The notes beneath the pieces are model-generated. The model was not told where the DNA came from and searched no databases. It saw only the letters and a list, made by a program, of their open reading frames with translations. From Cliona cf. orientalis (Eukaryota > Porifera > Demospongiae > Clionaida > Clionaidae): a DNA stretch of 64,000 nucleotides. Position 1 is the stretch's first letter, and every line of letters starts with the position of its first letter. Positions 54,986-64,000 of this stretch are shown here, one piece after another. Position numbers and translations under genes: made by a program. The stretch covers positions 2,356,001 through 2,420,000 of the forward strand of contig OZ005696.1 in assembly GCA_963930775.1 (NCBI GenBank), in the 5' to 3' direction.

Positions 54986-57900
54986 CTAGCTAGTACATGC
55001 AGTGTTTTCCAAGCTGGATCTCGTAAGAATTGATGCGACATACACAGAATGTGATCTTTCATCAGTATCTGTTTTTCCTCCTGCAACTAGTAGCTTACCC
55101 GATGGAAGCATAATGCAAGCACAATCGAACACTGTTTCAGGGAGTTCACCCACCTTTACCCATTGATTACTACGGGGATTGAAGACATGAATGTGTGCAC
55201 ATAATTTGCTACTCTTCAGCTTCATTCTTTCAAAAACTGAACTCGGTGATCCTTCAAGTCTTCCACCAATAGTAACTAGCATTTTTCCAATTGAGAACAA
55301 TGTACTTACATAGAACGGAAGATCTGGAAGTGCTGTCCAAATTGTTAAGTCATGATGACTCTTATCAGAAATGGCACTTGCAATCAGTGCAGGGAGTGAC
55401 ACACTGGTAATTGACTTGGAGGAGGTAATCATACCATGAGTAAGAAGTGTAATGTATAATGTTTCCCCAATAATAACTGTTCTGGCGGTGTTTCCTTCAA
55501 ATGGAAGAGGTGGTGCTTCATACCACTGTTGCGCATGTGTGTCAAGGATATACACAGCTGAAGTACTTGTACCCGATGCATTTACGCCACCAGAAATAAT
55601 TAAGTAATGCTTGTAACCATTACAACCAAAACGGAATAAAGCTGTTGGTAAGGGAGGGTATGGCTGGATCCACTGTTGAGAGCTGCTGTCCCAAGCCATA
55701 ATAATGTCAACTGGAACAGGCCGTACCTTACTTCCTTTGTCAATACCACCTACTACAATCAACTGTCCGTCCAGTACTGTGGTGATAAAGCTTGACATAG
55801 GTATCTCTGGTAGGACAGTCCAAGTATCAGTGACTGGATTGTACTGACAAACTCTATCCGGAGTTCGACAATAGACTAGATTATCTAGAACAACGGCAAC
55901 ACCAGGATATACATCTCTAGGTGTATTATTTTTGCTTGTCCATCTGAAAGACAATGGAAAGTATAACTCGTCCTCCTCCTGCTGTGTAATGGATGTGTAC
56001 AGTATCACATGGATGCATGAAATTTCTACCCTATCTAACATTATAACTTCAGCCCACTTAATAGATACACCCCAATACCAGACACATAATGATATTATAA
56101 CATTGTCAGAATCGACCTCCAATCAAGGACGTATTAGGAACTGTGTGTACGAGCAAGCTCTATGCTATGAAATATTGGGGTCATCTATGTGTGTCAGCCT
56201 AACCATCACTGGCGTAAGAACCAGGGGGGCTGGGGGGGGGGGCAATTGCCCCCCCCCCCCCAGTCATAAGATTGGGGGGGCAGAGCCCCTCTGATTTTTA
56301 GACTGCTGTACAAGCCAGGGGGTGGGGCTCACCCTCTGAGGTTTGCACTTTTCTTTTTCATCCGTTGCCACAATCAGGGTTGAGTTATTCATGATTGTGG
56401 TGTATCTTCCCCACGGTGTGTAGATATCAATAATTGTCACATGTGAACACAGATCAGTAGTCACTACAGATCTGTGTTCACATGTGACAAGCTAAGAGTC
56501 CAGAATGTCCTCGAAAATGCACTAGAAAAGCTCTCAGAAGGTCTAAAACTCCAAAATTTTCCTGGGGGAGCATGCCCCCAGACCCCACTAGCTTTCGCGC
56601 GCTATGCGCACGTAAAGCGAGTCTTCACCTGCTTACTTTCAGCCCCCCTACTCAAAAACATCTTCCTACGCCACTGACCATAGCCCATGTTTCGTGATCA
56701 TACACATGCCTGTGTGGTTGTAGGTATGCATGCTGCAACAGTGTCTGGTTAGAACTACCCCACCAAGGGACTACCACAGTTAAACTTTTGTTTCGATACA
56801 ATCAAGCCCCCTCAGAAAGGGTCTTAGACTAATGAGTGTAATTTTTAAATTTAGCTAAACTCTATGAGAGCAAGGAAAATTGGTATAGTATGGCCAGTAT
56901 ACAGTGCTCATGGATAATGTAACAAACTAATGCAAGTGAAACATAAGTATCAGCTCTGCACACACAAGTACTCGTGTGAGCACACACATGCATGTACTCT
57001 AGATTCTAAAGGTGAAAAATGCAGCTTATTTTACATGTACCGCTAACTGTTCTTCATTGCCTTTCTTTATGAAAGAAACTTACTAACATTCACCAAAAGT
57101 CTTATACATAAAGAATAATAATATCTGTTGTTTTACTGCCTCTCTTTGTTCAATAAACTCATAAATGTTCATCATACCAATTATTTGTTTTTTAGCTTGC
57201 CTCCTTTTGCTACTATCGTATGGCGGAGAATTTTCGTGGGGGCTAATTTTGTGGAAAGTCTGAAAAGGCCCTCAAAATTGATTTTGAAATTCGTGGTTTT
57301 ACATTTCATGACAGCAACCAGTCCAGCGGCGTGGCACTGCTGCACAAGCGATGATGTAATCGATACACGCACTCGCGATCTTCTTTGTTACTATTAACTT
57401 ACTAAGCCATACCTACAGAGACTTGGACAAATAGCATGAGATAGAAGGATATTAGTGTTGAAGACGCTACCAGCTGGATGACAATGGCTACTGCTGCTTG
57501 CTAATACTGGAAAGTGCTGGCCGCACTGCCACGATGTTTGTGGCCACACCCATCATCATGGACCCCCGATCGCATACCGTAGGCATTAATTTTCACGGGT
57601 GGGAAAATTTTGTGACTGCCAAGTCAACCACGAAAATAACGAAAATTAGCACCCCACGCAAATTACCCGCCATACGGTATATGGTGCAATAATTGAATCC
57701 CAATGTACATGTACATGTAGTATGCATACGCACAAGTGCTCTCATGTGCGTGCATCATACATGATATTGTATCCATACCTCATAAGTCACTACCTCACTA
57801 TTCGCGTGTATTTAAGTTACCGGTGAGCGATACTTTAATACTAAGCCATGGTGTTGCAAACACCATACAACGCTTAAGTGTGGGCACAACACTAATACAT

Positions 57901-58106
57901 GCATTTATAGCTGATGGTACCTTCATTTTGTCAAGTTCACTCCACAATGTTTCAATTTCTTCTTTTGTCACAGTGTCCAGGACCTATATCCGTGTGTGCA
58001 TGAGAGGTATACACCTATTGAGGCAGTATCTGGTGCTTATCAGTTGTGTACCAATCACTACCACAGTAAGAGGAGAGAAGGTTCTATACTGGGCACAATA
58101 TTCTCC

Positions 58107-58142
<36 letters not shown>

Positions 58143-59408
58143 GCCCAGTGCCCAGAGCAGAGGGGTTCCACTGTACTGTAACCCTTGTTGGATGTTGCCC
58201 ACCATTATGACTCTCTTGTGTGTGTATGTAGCTATGTGTAGTACCTGAAACGTGTCAAGCCTCCTTTCAATGGAACGTATCCAATCTTCCTGCAATGCTA
58301 GTTGTTTTTGAAGAATTCTTATCTCATCATCTTTCTTCTGCAAACATTCATCTTGAAAAGCATTTTCATGTTTTAACGTAGCATTCTCCTCGTCTCGTTC
58401 ATACAACTGTTGAAGTACTTCTCGTTTCTCATCTTCCTTGATCAACATCCGCTGCATTAATTCCAGCTTATTAAGAGTCCTATACGTAGGACTTGATGCA
58501 TTTGCCGATATTTCATCTAGTTGTTGAACCAGTTCTTCGGCTGAAGGACGGTTAACAGGAAGATTTTGGAGACAGTTGCTGGCTAAACATATAAGAGGGT
58601 GGTCGTCACTTCCTAGCATACTCGATAGAAAATCAAAAGCATATTCTCGTCTTTCAATCTCAGAAAGACCACTAACTCTTCCTGTTTGTGGGTCGGTCTT
58701 TGTTGCAGCCTTAAGTTTTTGTCCAGGAAACTCTTGAGTTAGAGCGAATAAGGCGATATTGCCGAAAGAAAACACATCAAGAGAAGTATTGTACTTTGTT
58801 ATTTCCCCCATGGCTTCGGGTGGCATGTAAACAATATTACCAGGACCTCTGGTCATTGTGGCAGCTAGCTGATTTGGTTTGAGATCGATTATCCGAGCAA
58901 CTCCCATATCTCCAATTTTTGCAACTAACCCAGAGTTGAGAAGCACATTTCTGGCGGTGAGGTCTCTATGAATGATAGGTGGCAACTGGCTGTGTAAATA
59001 AAGTAGACCTCGAGCAATATCAAGAAGGAACGATTGCTTCATAGCTAGTGGAAGACGTTTGGTCGACTCGAGTAGCTCATGAAGGCTCATTTCCAGGCAC
59101 TCCATGACAAGGGATGGCACTCTTGATCCTGGTAAAGAGCACACTCCCAAAAATTGGACAATATGTGGGTGGCGAAGTGTACTCATCAACTTGCACTCGT
59201 TAACGAATGTTGTAGTTAAGTGTTGGAAGTCATCGTTGTTGGTACAAAATTGTAGTAGATCTTCGTGTATCATTTTGGCAGCACACACGGCTCCGGGGAT
59301 TTCCACTTCCTTCACATATCCATAGGCTCCTCTACCCAGCTCGCGACCAGTTGGCTGAACGTCTGGTAAGAAAAAAGGCTGTAGGTCAGCAGGAAGATCA
59401 AGATCCAT
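54986..59408 (-). CDS. Protein kinase - coiled coil - Kelch protein
   Basis: Three exons: 58245-59408, 57921-57983, 54986-55981; all introns phase 0; 740 residues. Exon 1 holds a tyrosine-kinase-like (TKL-type) kinase domain: glycine loop GRGAYG (25-30), AxK lysine Lys45, catalytic loop HRDLTARN (147-154), activation-loop start DMG (167-169) in place of DFG, and PPEAM. A coiled coil follows from about residue 315 to 388. Exon 2 adds 21 residues (VLDTVTKEEIETLWSELDKM, then Lys). Exon 3 is a Kelch beta-propeller (QYNPVTDTWTVLPEIP, GGIDKGSKV, LLVAGGKTD). The catalytic residues needed for activity are present, so the kinase is probably active despite DMG. The small exon 2 was found because the plus-strand paralogue has a matching 21-codon exon. 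Head-to-head with that paralogue (60013-62463). Confidence 0.83.
56207..56676. mobile_element. 470-bp element, CASTGGCGTARGAA ends, 5-bp TSD
   Basis: The ends are CACTGGCGTAAGAA and TTCCTACGCCACTG (inverse CAGTGGCGTAGGAA). Flanked by ACCAT on both sides. Internal G/C runs near 56229-56282. It lies in the intron of the kinase-Kelch gene, upstream of its Kelch exon. Same terminal family as 38690-38846. Confidence 0.75.
57216..57677. mobile_element. 462-bp TA-flanked MITE
   Basis: The left end TCGTATGGCGGAGAATTTTC pairs with the right end, whose inverse begins CCGTATGGCGGGTAATTT. Both halves then carry GTGGGG and GCTAATTTT blocks. TA on both sides (57214-57215, 57678-57679) is compatible with a Tc1/mariner-type MITE. 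It lies in the last intron of the kinase-Kelch gene. Confidence 0.7.
58111..58141 (+). repeat. Run of about 30 G
   Basis: Uninterrupted G tract in the intron between the kinase exon and the small exon 2 of the minus-strand kinase-Kelch gene. On the minus strand it reads as a C run and could be misread as a poly-Pro coding stretch. Confidence 0.8.
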
Positions 59409-60012
59409 TTTGATAGCTGAGTCAGCGCAACTTGTTGGCGGATGGGGGGCGTATATGGGGGCGAGGTTAGAGCTGAGTCAGCATTGCGGTGCACTGGCTC
59501 AATTTTCGCGGATTCCGCGAAACTTGAATTAAATTAATTGTGCGTCATGCATTTACCTTCTCATGTGATAGAACAATCAACTTTCTAAGTATATTATAAT
59601 GATAATGATATTGGCACCTGGCACTTTGTGAGAGTAAAGGTGATCATACACATAACTTTGGGAACAATAGGCAGTGACTAATGCAGCCAATATTAACAAT
59701 ACATACAGGACAATGCCATACCTTGGAATAGCTATTTCTAGGATTGTTTCTGTCTGAATGTAACCTTCCAAGTGTATCATAACATTGTTGTGTGTTTGGA
59801 AATGGGCCAATGCTGTCACTCATGATGGTATGACAACCATAAAACGTTTGCTCACATGCTTACACACACATAGATATTATATGCAAGCAGACACACACAT
59901 GTTTAGTAGCATTCTGCTTGTACATGTACATGTAGCTACAGTGCCTCTTTGTAGTTAGCATAATGTTATGACATGTCCAGTGCATGCAATAAAATAAATT
60001 TGATGCACTTAG
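59409..60012. other. Region between the divergent Kelch genes
   Basis: 604 bp between the ATG of the minus-strand kinase-Kelch gene and the first recognised exon of the plus-strand paralogue. It would be expected to hold the kinase exon of the plus gene, yet no kinase motif is seen in any frame. The minus strand contains one hydrophobic frame (59577-59819) that I do not accept as a gene. Confidence 0.5.
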
Positions 60013-62463
60013 TGTGCCTCCATTAACAACCGTCCATCTGCCAAAGATCTTGTGGAGAGACTTAGCAGCATTCCTGCTGAAGATTCTGATGAGGATTTTG
60101 AAGTGCTTGGAAAGTTGGATTTAGTAAAGGGAATGTTAGACCTCAAAGAGGAGAACAAACGCTTATCTGATCAGGTGTCTACTTTATCACAGCAAGTGTC
60201 CTCTGTCGAAGAAGAGTGTAAGAGGAGCATGCGTGATCGGATAGATGCTATTGAAGGGAGGCTGAATGAAGCACAGGTACTTAGCCTACTATGCATGTAT
60301 GTATGTTGTTAGCTATGCACACGTGTATGTGTACGTGTAGGCCAAAACGATTATGCCCTTAAGAATATACATTATAGTATTACTATGTAACTTACATCCA
60401 ATGCTGTTAGCTACCTTAAATACATTATACATGTGCATGTACATGTATAATAATATTATGTCCAATACAATGTAACATTGTATACAACAAAGGACCATTT
60501 AAGTTAAAAACTATATGTACCACTAAGTTTGTACTACAGTGTACCTCAATCGGAATGACTCTTATGTACACAGGCACAAGGGACTGTTGGAGATGAGGAG
60601 GCAGAGTCACTCAGGGGCCAGCTGGATAAGATGAAGGTGATCAGAGTTTGCCTCATAATATTATTATTATAGCATGTACAGCTAGCTGTGAGATTTGAAA
60701 GTGAAAAGAAAAGATAGCTAATTGGTGAGAGTATTTTACCAGAATTCAGAAGGTTCCAGCCATAGGGTCAAATCCTGCCTGAAATTTATTTTCCTTCAAT
60801 TCTTAATCGTTGACTGTTTGTAGCACCTGGACTTACATTAATTATCAAAAACTAATCATGCAGGTACTAGCTATCTTTCATGTGAATTTGGGTTTTAGCT
60901 AATGGCCCTAAAATACAAACGATAACACTGTAGCTATTGGTGTTAAAGTTTGTCAGAATTTAGTACTTGCAAACACATTTTAAGTCAAAGTTATTAACCT
61001 TGATGATACTTGCCATCCTAAAGATCATTGGATGTGATTGTCCGTATGTTAATAAGTTGTAATCTGATAGGGGAGATAGGTGGTTAGCTATACAAACAAA
61101 GATTTGTGCCACGGTAAACAACGTTGGTCCCAACACTAGTATACACTTACTATATTATTATTGTTGATAATGCTGCACACTGAAAACTGTAAAGTGAAAC
61201 CATAGGCTAAGCGTGTTATGCTACCTACGGTTTTGTTTTATGTATAAGCAAGGTTTATGTTTGTAAGGAGAGATTCTTAGCTTGTGCCTAATAAACACTA
61301 CTTTCATCAAGTTTCATGCTGCTATTACAGCGTCATGCATAAAACTGTATACCGGATAGATGGAAATTTTTGTCCTGTGCAACGGTTGCATAGTGGACAT
61401 GGCAACATTGGCGAATTTTATTCAGTGAAGATTTCCACTTATATACGGTACTACAATGTGTCAATTTTAATTTTGCTTTAATACTTGACAGATCTTACCA
61501 GATGGACTACATTTTCCCTTGTCATTTGAATGGAACAAAGAAGCAAGTATGCACCAGGGAATGCGATTTGGCACTGCCATCGTCGTGGGAAACCATGTCT
61601 ACTGTCGATCATACAATGTCGTGTATCGGTATGATCCAGCCACTGACACATGGATAGTCTTGCCAGACGTGCCTGTTACGCTCTTTTCAATTACATCACT
61701 GAATGGACAGTTGGTAGCAATTGGTGGATTGGATGAAGGTAGTAGGATTACTACTAAAGCCAAGACGATTTATGCTTGGGATGGTGATAGTACTAGCTGG
61801 AAATGGACCGCACTGCCTGGTAATCCCTCCCTGCCCTCTGGAGTGAGCCGTCCAGGATGTGGGAGCTATGAGCACTACTTGATAGTGGCTGGTGGGTATG
61901 GCAGCAGGCTATTCTTGTCTTCTGTGGCAGTCTTTGATACAAAGGAAGGAAGTTGGTATAGCGCTTCTCCACTTCCAGAAACTGGTGATATTATCGGAAC
62001 TGTAGTCATAGGTGAACATTTGTACCTTCTACTCAGCCAAGAGGGGTTAGTGAAGCCTACCAAGGTGATCTTGACTGCATCTATGCAAACTCTAGCAACA
62101 CAAGCAAAATCTGGCAAAAATGAAGGTTCCTCGATCTGGAAGAAGCTACCAGATATTCCTGACTATATCGTGACCGGAATATTCTCAATTGGCAATAACA
62201 TGCTTTTGGCCATCACTGTTGGCGATGGACCCTTTCAGAGAATACCGGTAATGGATATGCTGCCAATAGCCAGAGCAGATATTCACATTTTCAACCCCTA
62301 CATTAAGCAGTGGATGAAGGTGGGGGAACTTCCTGAAGTGATGATCAGGTGTGCTTGCACTATGCTGCCAAGTGGTAAGCTGCTGGTGGCTGGAGGATCT
62401 ACTGGAGTGAAGGTCGGGCAGAAGCTTGTGAGCTCGGTCTACACAGCTAAGATCCGTCGATAG
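60013..62463 (+). CDS. Coiled coil - Kelch protein with a kinase-domain remnant (5' end unresolved)
   Basis: Exons 60013-60276, 60574-60636 and 61492-62463, all phase 0. The first opens after a CACTTAG acceptor with CASINNRPSAKDLVERLSSI, which matches the very end of the paralogue's kinase domain (CLQNLPVNRPSAEELVQQL). A coiled coil (DLKEENKRLSDQVSTLSQQV) follows. Exon 2 is a 21-residue linker (AQGTVGDEEAESLRGQLDKM, then Lys). Exon 3 is a Kelch propeller (YRYDPATDTWIVLPDVP, IGGLDEGSR, LLVAGGSTG). The upstream base triplet is an in-frame TAG, so either an unseen 5' exon is spliced on, or translation starts inside the coiled coil (the ATG before LDLKEENKRL). The paralogue has no intron at this place, so loss of the kinase part by deletion is the likelier history. 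Confidence 0.72.
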
Positions 62464-62674
62464 ACATCTTTGAATATCAAGTTGATAATACTACAGTATT
62501 ATTAATTCTGTATGGCAGGTACTGATGTGTGTACACATGTTTGGTGCACTTTGTGTAAAATTTAATACGTACATTCATGCACAGTGTGCAAATGCGCATG
62601 CGCAATAAGATGACAAGGGTGGTATTAGGGCGTGGTTTACATGACCCTTTGCTAGCTTGGTTTTAGCTGCTGTA

Positions 62675-62680
62675 AATAAA
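62675..62680 (+). promoter_or_regulatory. Polyadenylation signal AATAAA
   Basis: Lies about 210 bp after the stop of the plus-strand Kelch gene and 65 bp before the next start codon. Confidence 0.5.
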
Positions 62681-62744
62681 GCATAGCCATTCATTCTTGT
62701 ATCATCGCCTGGTGTTGCCGAAGAAAATTACCAAACCAGCAAAA

Positions 62745-64000
62745 ATGTCTGAGTCTCTCAGCCCGAGGCTGAGTCCTACTACCTCAGGTCCTTACCACCA
62801 GCCGCTGTACATCAACGCGGACGCCGAACAGGAATTTAAATTCACCAAAGTCGACCTGAGAAAGACAGAATCACTGGGATCTGGTTCACATAGGGCTGTC
62901 GGCAAAAAAGTGCCCGACTCTCTCATTCCGAGGCAGAGTCTTACTCAGAATCTCCCAGGCCCTGGCTCTCAGTATCACATGCCACTATATGTCAACACTG
63001 CAGCCAGTGACCAACAGGAATTTAAGTTCACCAGAATCGAGCTGAGAAAGACAGAAACATTGGGGTCTGGTTCTTACGGGGCTGTCTGTATTGCCAAGTG
63101 TGACGAGCTCCTGTGTGCTGCTAAGCTTCTCTTTACGGTGCTCTTTGACATGGACGAAGGTCCGGTCTCACCCAGGCTCTCCCCACGCATCAACAGACCC
63201 CATCGAATTCCACTGAGGAGGTTCGAACAAGAGTGTCGATTTCTGAGTCAGATCAAACACCCCAACATCGTCCAATATCTAGGTACATATCGCGATCCAG
63301 ATTCCCGGGCCTTGGTACTCCTAATGGAGCTCATGGATGAAAGCCTCACCCACTTCCTCGTTCGAATGTCTGTCCCTATACCTTATCACCTTGAGGTTGG
63401 AATTTCGCATGACGTAGCAGTAGCTCTAGCGTACCTTCACTCCAATAACATCATCCACCGAGACCTCTCCGGTAACAATGTCCTCTTGATACATGGCTGT
63501 CGAGCTAAGGTGTCCGATTTTGGCATGTCAACGCTGGTTACAAATCCTAGCGGCAACTCTCGTACTGTATGCCCTGGAACACCCGTCTATATGCCACCTG
63601 AAGCTCTAAATGAGACACCCAAGTACAGTGAAATGCTAGATAGCTTTTCTTTTGGAGTTGTGGTGCTTCAGATCTTGACACGAGAATTTCCAAATCCCAC
63701 GGATCGTTTCACCGCCATGAAGGTCCCACATCCACAGCAACCTAACGTGATGACGGAAGCAAAATTCGATGTTCCGGAGAAAGTGCGTCGAAAGGAACAC
63801 ATTGATATGGTTCGTCAAGATGAGCCGCTTTTAGACATTGTCCTGGATTGCTTGAATGACAGAGATTCAGGAAGACCATCCGCCAGTACCTTGTGCTCGA
63901 GGCTAGAAGCTTTGAAAGCATCACATCGCTACGTTGAGAGCCACGCAGATCGTCTTGATCTAGAAATTGTCGAAAGGAGGATAACGGCTGCTCGTCAAGA
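62745..64000 (+). CDS. Protein kinase, duplicated glycine-loop region (3' end outside window)
   Basis: Open for 418 codons to the window edge. Start at AAAAATGTCT, the first Met. Residues 5-54 and 60-115 are two versions of one segment (QEFKFTKVDLRKTESLGSGS then HRAV; QEFKFTRIELRKTETLGSGS then YGAV). Only the second leads into a full kinase domain: glycine loop GSGSYG (107-112), AAK lysine Lys127, HRDLSGNN (238-245), DFG (258-260), PPEAL (284-288), and the GRPSA end near 377. The first version breaks off after the loop and resembles a decoy. An insert of about 25 residues lies after the lysine strand (VSPRLSPRINRPHRI). The end of the visible frame (SHADRLDLEIVERRITAARQ) looks like the beginning of a coiled coil, so a Kelch domain beyond the window is likely by analogy with its neighbours. 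Confidence 0.85.
   Translation, partial: MSESLSPRLSPTTSGPYHQPLYINADAEQEFKFTKVDLRKTESLGSGSHRAVGKKVPDSLIPRQSLTQNLPGPGSQYHMPLYVNTAASDQQEFKFTRIELRKTETLGSGSYGAVCIAKCDELLCAAKLLFTVLFDMDEGPVSPRLSPRINRPHRIPLRRFEQECRFLSQIKHPNIVQYLGTYRDPDSRALVLLMELMDESLTHFLVRMSVPIPYHLEVGISHDVAVALAYLHSNNIIHRDLSGNNVLLIHGCRAKVSDFGMSTLVTNPSGNSRTVCPGTPVYMPPEALNETPKYSEMLDSFSFGVVVLQILTREFPNPTDRFTAMKVPHPQQPNVMTEAKFDVPEKVRRKEHIDMVRQDEPLLDIVLDCLNDRDSGRPSASTLCSRLEALKASHRYVESHADRLDLEIVERRITAARQ

Follow-up and report, generated by a model that had tools for sequence, protein, structure and literature searches.

A candidate repertoire of recognition kinases with variable Kelch pockets in the sponge Cliona cf. orientalis

A 64,000-nucleotide stretch of the Cliona cf. 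orientalis genome (contig OZ005696.1, positions 2,356,001-2,420,000, or C8:2356001-2420000 in our numbering; hereafter the window) carries three neighbouring genes, here called A, B and C. Genes A and C each encode one protein in which a kinase domain is followed by a coiled coil and then by a Kelch propeller. They belong to a greatly expanded family, which in our view probably serves as a diversified set of recognition kinases in the cytoplasm; gene B is a sister gene in which no kinase domain was found. This reading is based on the sequence of the genome, in which relatives of these genes are numerous, and on the close paralogues among them, in which the kinase is nearly fixed and the Kelch domain varies on one predicted face. 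In the following sections the architecture, the size of the family and the position of the variable residues are described, together with the explanations that compete with this one.

Architecture of the proteins

The order kinase, coiled coil, Kelch is a real protein plan, because gene C encodes it in a single frame that needs no splicing. Beginning with a start codon at 62745 and ending with a stop at the window-equivalent positions 65502-65504, this open frame of 919 codons holds a kinase domain (Pfam Pkinase, 1.5e-38), a stretch of approximately 240 residues with the coiled coil, and the Kelch domain. A sequence-only reading of this DNA had supposed that this third kinase of the cluster shares the plan of its neighbours, and for gene C it does. 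The same reading had joined the three parts of gene A in one protein of 740 residues. This is borne out by a splice model of 388, 21 and 331 codons with GT/AG borders, all in phase 0, and, within the frames of the gene, by Pfam matches to Pkinase (2.6e-35) and Kelch_1 (9.1e-19). The features of the two genes are as follows.

58245..59408, minus strand: gene A exon 1, with ATG, the protein kinase domain at about 59348-58521 and then the coiled coil; 388 codons, donor GT at 58244.
57921..57983, minus strand: gene A exon 2, the linker; 21 codons ending LDKMK, phase 0.
54986..55981, minus strand: gene A exon 3, the Kelch domain; 331 codons and the stop.
62745..64000, plus strand, continuing past the window: gene C, an uninterrupted frame with the kinase at about 63048-63905, after which the coiled coil begins; the remainder was read in L031.

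Seven members that are encoded in one frame were scanned with Pfam at 1e-5, and only kinase models and Kelch or related propeller models were found, Kelch_1 scoring above the cut-off in all seven. BTB and BACK domains were found in none of the seven, nor in the frames of genes A-C, and NACHT, WD40, ankyrin, death, LRR and Roc-COR domains gave no Pfam match in either group. The motifs HRD and DFG were present by pattern in all 30 one-frame genes that were read, and gene A has HRD and DMG; the kinases retain their catalytic motifs and are predicted to be active eukaryotic protein kinases. Among structures in the PDB the kinase of gene A matched TNNI3K best, followed by TYK2, BAK1, CTR1, EGFR, roco4 and MAPK7, with WNK1 also among the matches. 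That of gene C matched TYK2 best and then IRAK4, and further LIMK2, BRI1, MAP3K12, RAF and JAK2. The earlier assignment of these kinases to the TKL type is likely to be right, but TKL kinases and tyrosine kinases of the JAK family occur together in both lists. The Kelch domains matched designed Kelch propellers as well as Keap1 and KLHL proteins (KLHL2, KLHL12, KLHL20).

The heptad signal of the coiled coil was compared with that of 300 shuffled sequences in three genes, and was equalled by two shuffles for gene A, one for gene C and none for L060. A 19-residue segment with hydropathy of at least 1.6, at any place in the protein, occurred in 10 of 31 proteins, judged by hydropathy alone; the family proteins may be soluble.

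Size and distribution of the family

The genome (216.8 Mb in 149 contigs) has Wnt matches at three places, which mark it as an animal's, the Wnt model having no hit in any of 14 control genomes; a silicatein-type pattern gave no hit, an uninformative negative. The genome was searched with the Kelch domains of A and C and the kinase domains of A, C and L036. Only the best-scoring candidates were returned, and all counts are therefore minima. The Kelch queries gave at least 123 (A) and 129 (C) matches, and the kinase queries at least 108 (A), 130 (C) and 136 (L036), which merge into at least 236 Kelch places and at least 325 kinase places. For 225 of the 325 kinase places listed, a neighbouring kinase place lies within 20 kb. 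At least 80 of the 236 listed Kelch places, gene C included, share an uninterrupted frame with a kinase match, as judged by position, frame and frame length. At 71 others a same-strand kinase match is found upstream within 10 kb but outside the frame of the Kelch, and the remaining 85 have no kinase partner among the matches listed. Frames of at least 700 codons among the listed matches number 159 found by their kinase and nine found by their Kelch only. Before the L036 kinase was used as a query, 93 frames were without a partner among the matches listed, namely 46 Kelch frames of at least 600 codons and 47 kinase frames of at least 700; when a random sample of 12 of these (six of each) was read, all 12 held both domains.

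These counts also bear on whether kinase and Kelch are separate genes which merely lie side by side, the finding named beforehand as fatal to the fusion. The models of A and B do depend on predicted splicing. Against this stand the intronless gene C and at least 79 further frames that by position and frame carry both domains without an intron, the 12 of 12 sampled frames mentioned above, and a linker exon which occupies one and the same position in five genes and measures 63 or 57 bases. Two separate genes are rejected for the architecture by the uninterrupted frame of gene C, and we regard that explanation as hardly credible. The linker itself had been described as a conserved exon of 21 codons. 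This length was found in A and B, both ending in LDKMK; in the relatives L002-L004 the exon in this position has a GT donor and 19 codons.

A kinase, read or listed, lies upstream in 26 of the 30 best matches to the Kelch of gene A, in several of them only as a piece of the C-lobe, and in L006 the frames of the kinase pieces fail to connect cleanly. The proposition that all related kinases carry a Kelch domain was rejected: of three further kinase places that were read, L077 shows a kinase exon accompanied by one for Kelch, and L075 (C19:5583000-5589100) and L076 (C5:2246000-2252700) are without Kelch. The latter two combine a kinase like that of gene A with a proline-rich region and, by eye, a second domain resembling a tyrosine kinase, and apparently represent another multi-exon family built on a related first kinase.

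Two places with a 100% identical kinase are very recent duplicates. L049 (C1:761900-764600) is a broken-looking relative of gene A with stops within its kinase and Kelch matches, as would be predicted of a family evolving by birth and death. Two further frames, elsewhere in the genome, carry several kinase-domain matches each. An open frame of 2925 codons at C17:2316562-2324877 holds at least ten tandem kinase-domain matches with no stop, and one of 1326 codons at C2:7894805-7897624 holds at least three.

Position of the variable residues

Three sets of close paralogues were compared: the tandem sets C14 and C5, of eight one-frame genes each, and the set C4, which consists of six Kelch exons that are separate, as the one in gene A is (L009, L012, L017, L019, L020 and L025), all except L020 with a kinase piece upstream. 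Each set is named after its contig. The median identities of kinase and Kelch are 0.946 and 0.798 in C14, and 0.944 and 0.758 in C5. The corresponding median replacement (dN) and synonymous (dS) distances in C14 are 0.028 and 0.11 for the kinase, and 0.126 and 0.16 for the Kelch; in C5 they are 0.029 and 0.14, and 0.147 and 0.20. In one very recent pair, L036 and L078, the kinases agree at all of 304 residues, and 18 of 297 residues differ between the Kelch domains, some of them owing to an apparent frame change at the Kelch end.

The strands of each blade were named after what we take to be the standard Kelch motif, and the partner contacts of Keap1 presumably fall at the same offsets as the variable residues found here. 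In the passages that describe it, the substrate pocket of KLHL3 is shaped by its six betaB-betaC loops together with betaD-betaA loops (PMC9022995). A site was called hypervariable if it showed five or more residues among the eight genes of C14 or C5, or four or more among the six of C4. With loop borders drawn by eye on an alignment that had already been seen, every such site lies in the B-C loops (after the double glycine) or the D-A loops (before strand A): 17 of 17 in C14, 16 of 16 in C5 and 12 of 12 in C4. Of all Kelch sites, the two kinds of loop account for 95 of 289 in C14, 93 of 280 in C5 and 93 of 286 in C4. They also hold 236 of 339.5 replacement changes of the Kelch in C14 and 231.6 of 386.6 in C5, a share which none of 10000 permutations reached in either set.

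Because these first borders postdated sight of the alignment, the test was repeated with a rule blind to variability, in which classes are set by fixed offsets from the double-glycine and tryptophan anchors; blade 1 of C14 and C5, which is without the double glycine, is omitted by this rule. The pocket class then holds 12 of 15 hypervariable sites in C14, 8 of 10 in C5 and 9 of 11 in C4 (29 of 36 in total), the others lie in strands (three, two and two), and none of the 36 falls in the turns of the opposite face. The concentration of replacement changes was again matched by 0 of 10000 permutations in each of the three sets. With the borders drawn by eye, replacement rates in opposite-face and pocket loops are 0.24 versus 1.06 in C14, 0.57 versus 1.07 in C5 and 0.07 versus 0.58 in C4, and the glycine and tryptophan anchors are largely conserved.

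The hypervariable sites are concentrated on one predicted binding face, and the most variable Kelch positions of these sets lie in the predicted partner-binding pocket, a mapping that rests on the motifs and on the description of KLHL3. The suggestion that the Kelch acts as a self-contained sensor gains from the nearly fixed kinases of two tandem sets and the hypervariable pocket face of all three; that ligands are bound there we infer.

Selection and alternative explanations

The ratio of replacement to synonymous rates (omega) was estimated by a counting method with local dS; values are given in the order C14, C5, C4. In the opposite-face loops it is 0.43, 0.58 and 0.35 with the borders drawn by eye and 0.48, 0.80 and 0.25 with the blind rule, and in the strands 0.58, 0.47 and 0.32, or 0.86, 0.61 and 0.43. 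Codons GG+1, A-1 and A-2 taken together give 1.42, 1.82 and 1.67. Kinase and coiled coil together give 0.40 in C14 and 0.29 in C5, and in the same genes the replacement rates of the pocket loops (1.06 and 1.07) exceed the synonymous rates of kinase and coiled coil (0.48 and 0.60). A custom test resembling the PHI (pairwise homoplasy index) test gave a recombination signal, which was equalled in 0 of 500 permutations in C14 and 11 of 500 in C5.

Several observations weigh against a repertoire with selected pockets. The omega of the pocket loops is 0.96, 1.26 and 1.41 with the borders by eye or 0.88, 1.13 and 1.37 with the blind rule, which is not clearly above 1. With the blind rule the contrast is weak in C5 (turns 0.80) and in C14 (strands 0.86), and the count of 45 out of 45 rests on the borders drawn by eye after the alignment had been seen. 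With the borders by eye, the synonymous rate of C14 is 1.10 in the pocket loops as against 0.42-0.57 elsewhere, and that of C5 is 0.98 in the far-face loops as against 0.85 in the pocket loops. The three sets comprise 22 genes of a far larger family and were chosen as close paralogues, the kinase being compared in 16 of them (C14 and C5). Four of the 30 best matches to the Kelch of gene A have no kinase in the DNA that was read: L005 (gene B), L015, L020 and L026. Finally, of five one-frame genes scored for the coiled coil, L052 gives a weak signal (maximum 0.87), and the 1.07 of L060 is little above the 0.98 of that protein's own Kelch region. Because the dN/dS of the pocket is about 0.9-1.4 with local dS, positive selection at the pocket is suggested, not proven.

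The raised synonymous rates may come from multiple hits, recombination or alignment error near indels. A local mutational or gene-conversion process, rather than selection, might make the pocket codons variable, and the synonymous rate of the C14 pocket loops and the recombination signal in C14 and C5 fit such a process. Slowly evolving pocket-loop codons (two residues at most) have synonymous rates of 0.80, 0.76 and 0.29, compared with 0.47, 0.67 and 0.41 in the other Kelch codons; these differ in direction between the sets, and the synonymous rise is therefore not consistent. We consider this explanation very improbable.

Relaxed constraint, in which the Kelch is decaying or free to vary and its loops are variable simply as loops, would agree with an omega of approximately 0.8 for the whole Kelch in C14 and C5, with the blind-rule value of 0.80 for the far-face turns of C5, and with the existence of broken copies (stops inside some matches, and the apparent frame change at the Kelch end in L036/L078). 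It would not account for opposite-face loops that have no hypervariable site in any of the three sets and lower replacement rates, for frames of 700-900 codons that remain open, or for the largely retained glycine and tryptophan anchors, and we hold it to be improbable.

A more serious alternative, though one we think unlikely, is that the pockets were diversified for endogenous partners or for allorecognition (between cells, with symbionts or in developmental scaffolds), and not for invaders. It would yield the same pocket variability. KLHL pockets bind endogenous degrons, according to the KLHL3 passages (PMC9022995), and fungi have an allorecognition system built on WD40 propellers with hypervariable sites (PMC12222747). 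On the other side, the size of the family, its clusters and its very recent duplicates resemble birth and death of the kind seen in defence genes, which is not decisive.

Proposed mode of action

Under the reading that we favour, each protein of the repertoire would bind a particular partner, whether foreign, self or altered self, in its Kelch pocket. Binding would alter the oligomeric state that the coiled coil imposes, and the altered assembly would bring kinase domains together. The gathered kinases might then fire a common downstream pathway, with the same output from every member. Specificity would be diversified and output constant, as in germline-encoded families of innate recognition.

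Gene B and other features of the locus

Genes A and B are oriented head to head. Gene B had been taken as a paralogue of gene A, and its coiled coil, linker and Kelch domain were found as follows.

60013..60276, plus strand: gene B exon, the tail of a kinase domain (NRPSA...) running straight into the coiled coil.
60574..60636, plus strand: gene B linker exon; 21 codons ending LDKMK, phase 0.
61492..62463, plus strand: gene B Kelch exon and stop; Kelch_1 1e-15 (Pfam), 44% identity to the Kelch exon of gene A.

A tblastn search of the whole window, in which the kinase domains of A, C and L040 were the queries and expectation values (E) up to 10 were accepted, found no kinase domain upstream of gene B; apart from fragments with E near 1 or higher, it matched the kinases of A and C and the duplicated start of C. 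On account of this result gene B is most readily interpreted as a gene for coiled coil and Kelch, or as a 5'-truncated copy, not as a full member of the family, although a kinase exon could lie beyond the window. Within the family it might act as a regulator or decoy that has no kinase.

Gene C carries an internal duplication at its 5' end, a 74-bp repeat (62827-62900 and 63013-63086, 85% identical, spacing 186) which copies an N-terminal segment including the glycine loop of the kinase. The second intron of gene A holds, at 56434-56490, an almost perfect inverted repeat of 28 bp whose loop is a single base, possibly a transposon remnant.

Comparison with known systems

The Pfam scans gave neither BTB and BACK nor NACHT and WD40, and we therefore place the family outside both KLHL and HNWD proteins. 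The KLHL adaptors of Cullin-3 (BTB-BACK-Kelch) have the same type of propeller and the same B-C and D-A loops as those that shape the KLHL3 pocket, but the BTB and BACK domains of those adaptors are absent from all seven proteins scanned here, in which a kinase takes their place. Among the systems considered, the closest functional analogues are the HNWD NLRs of Podospora (het-d, het-e), which likewise have a propeller sensor with hypervariable sites. They have the order HET-NACHT-WD40 and occupy few loci, whereas the present proteins combine kinase, coiled coil and Kelch in a very large family.

Human LRRK2 also joins a kinase to a propeller, and the roco4 kinase is among the PDB matches of gene A, but in the sponge proteins Pfam finds no Roc-COR, and Kelch replaces WD40. 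Plant receptor kinases couple a sensor to a kinase, a logic to which that of the present family may be likened; two of them, BRI1 and BAK1, are together with the TKL kinases TNNI3K and IRAK4 among the solved kinase domains closest to A and C. Unlike these, the family has no ankyrin, death or LRR domain that Pfam could find, and its Kelch stands at the C terminus.

For the HNWD proteins, the WD40 hypervariable sites are reported to be under diversifying selection on a predicted interaction surface (PMC12222747). Kelch-bearing kinases are mentioned from protists, namely a few tyrosine kinases of Entamoeba histolytica (PMC2939887) and one "unique" kinase of Leishmania major (PMC1266030). These are few proteins, and the passages concerned describe neither a coiled-coil plan nor a repertoire. 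In excerpts of two sponge transcriptome papers (PMC6208332, PMC11000336), Kelch genes or Kelch-type propellers and kinases appear as separate entries responsive to microbial signals or niche, and a kinase-Kelch fusion is not described in those excerpts; the text of PMC4772301 contains no Kelch. No report of a kinase-Kelch family from a sponge or any other animal was found in searches of a library of open-licence papers.

Significance

Tentatively, an early animal lineage may have evolved its own intracellular recognition repertoire of perhaps several hundred germline-encoded kinases, each with a hypervariable Kelch pocket, the number being an estimate from searches that returned the best candidates only. 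By analogy, and just as tentatively, such a repertoire would do the job of the NLRs and receptor kinases of plants. If this is true, it would be an undescribed kind of animal recognition system, with receptor and signalling enzyme in one soluble protein, and it would place Kelch beside the fungal WD40 receptors among the propellers diversified for recognition. The combination of a constant enzyme with a predictable variable pocket makes the question of recognition a testable one, with known residues, a small domain and a kinase output, and the answer would bear on how the recognition of friend and foe, or of self and non-self, works within the cells of early animals.

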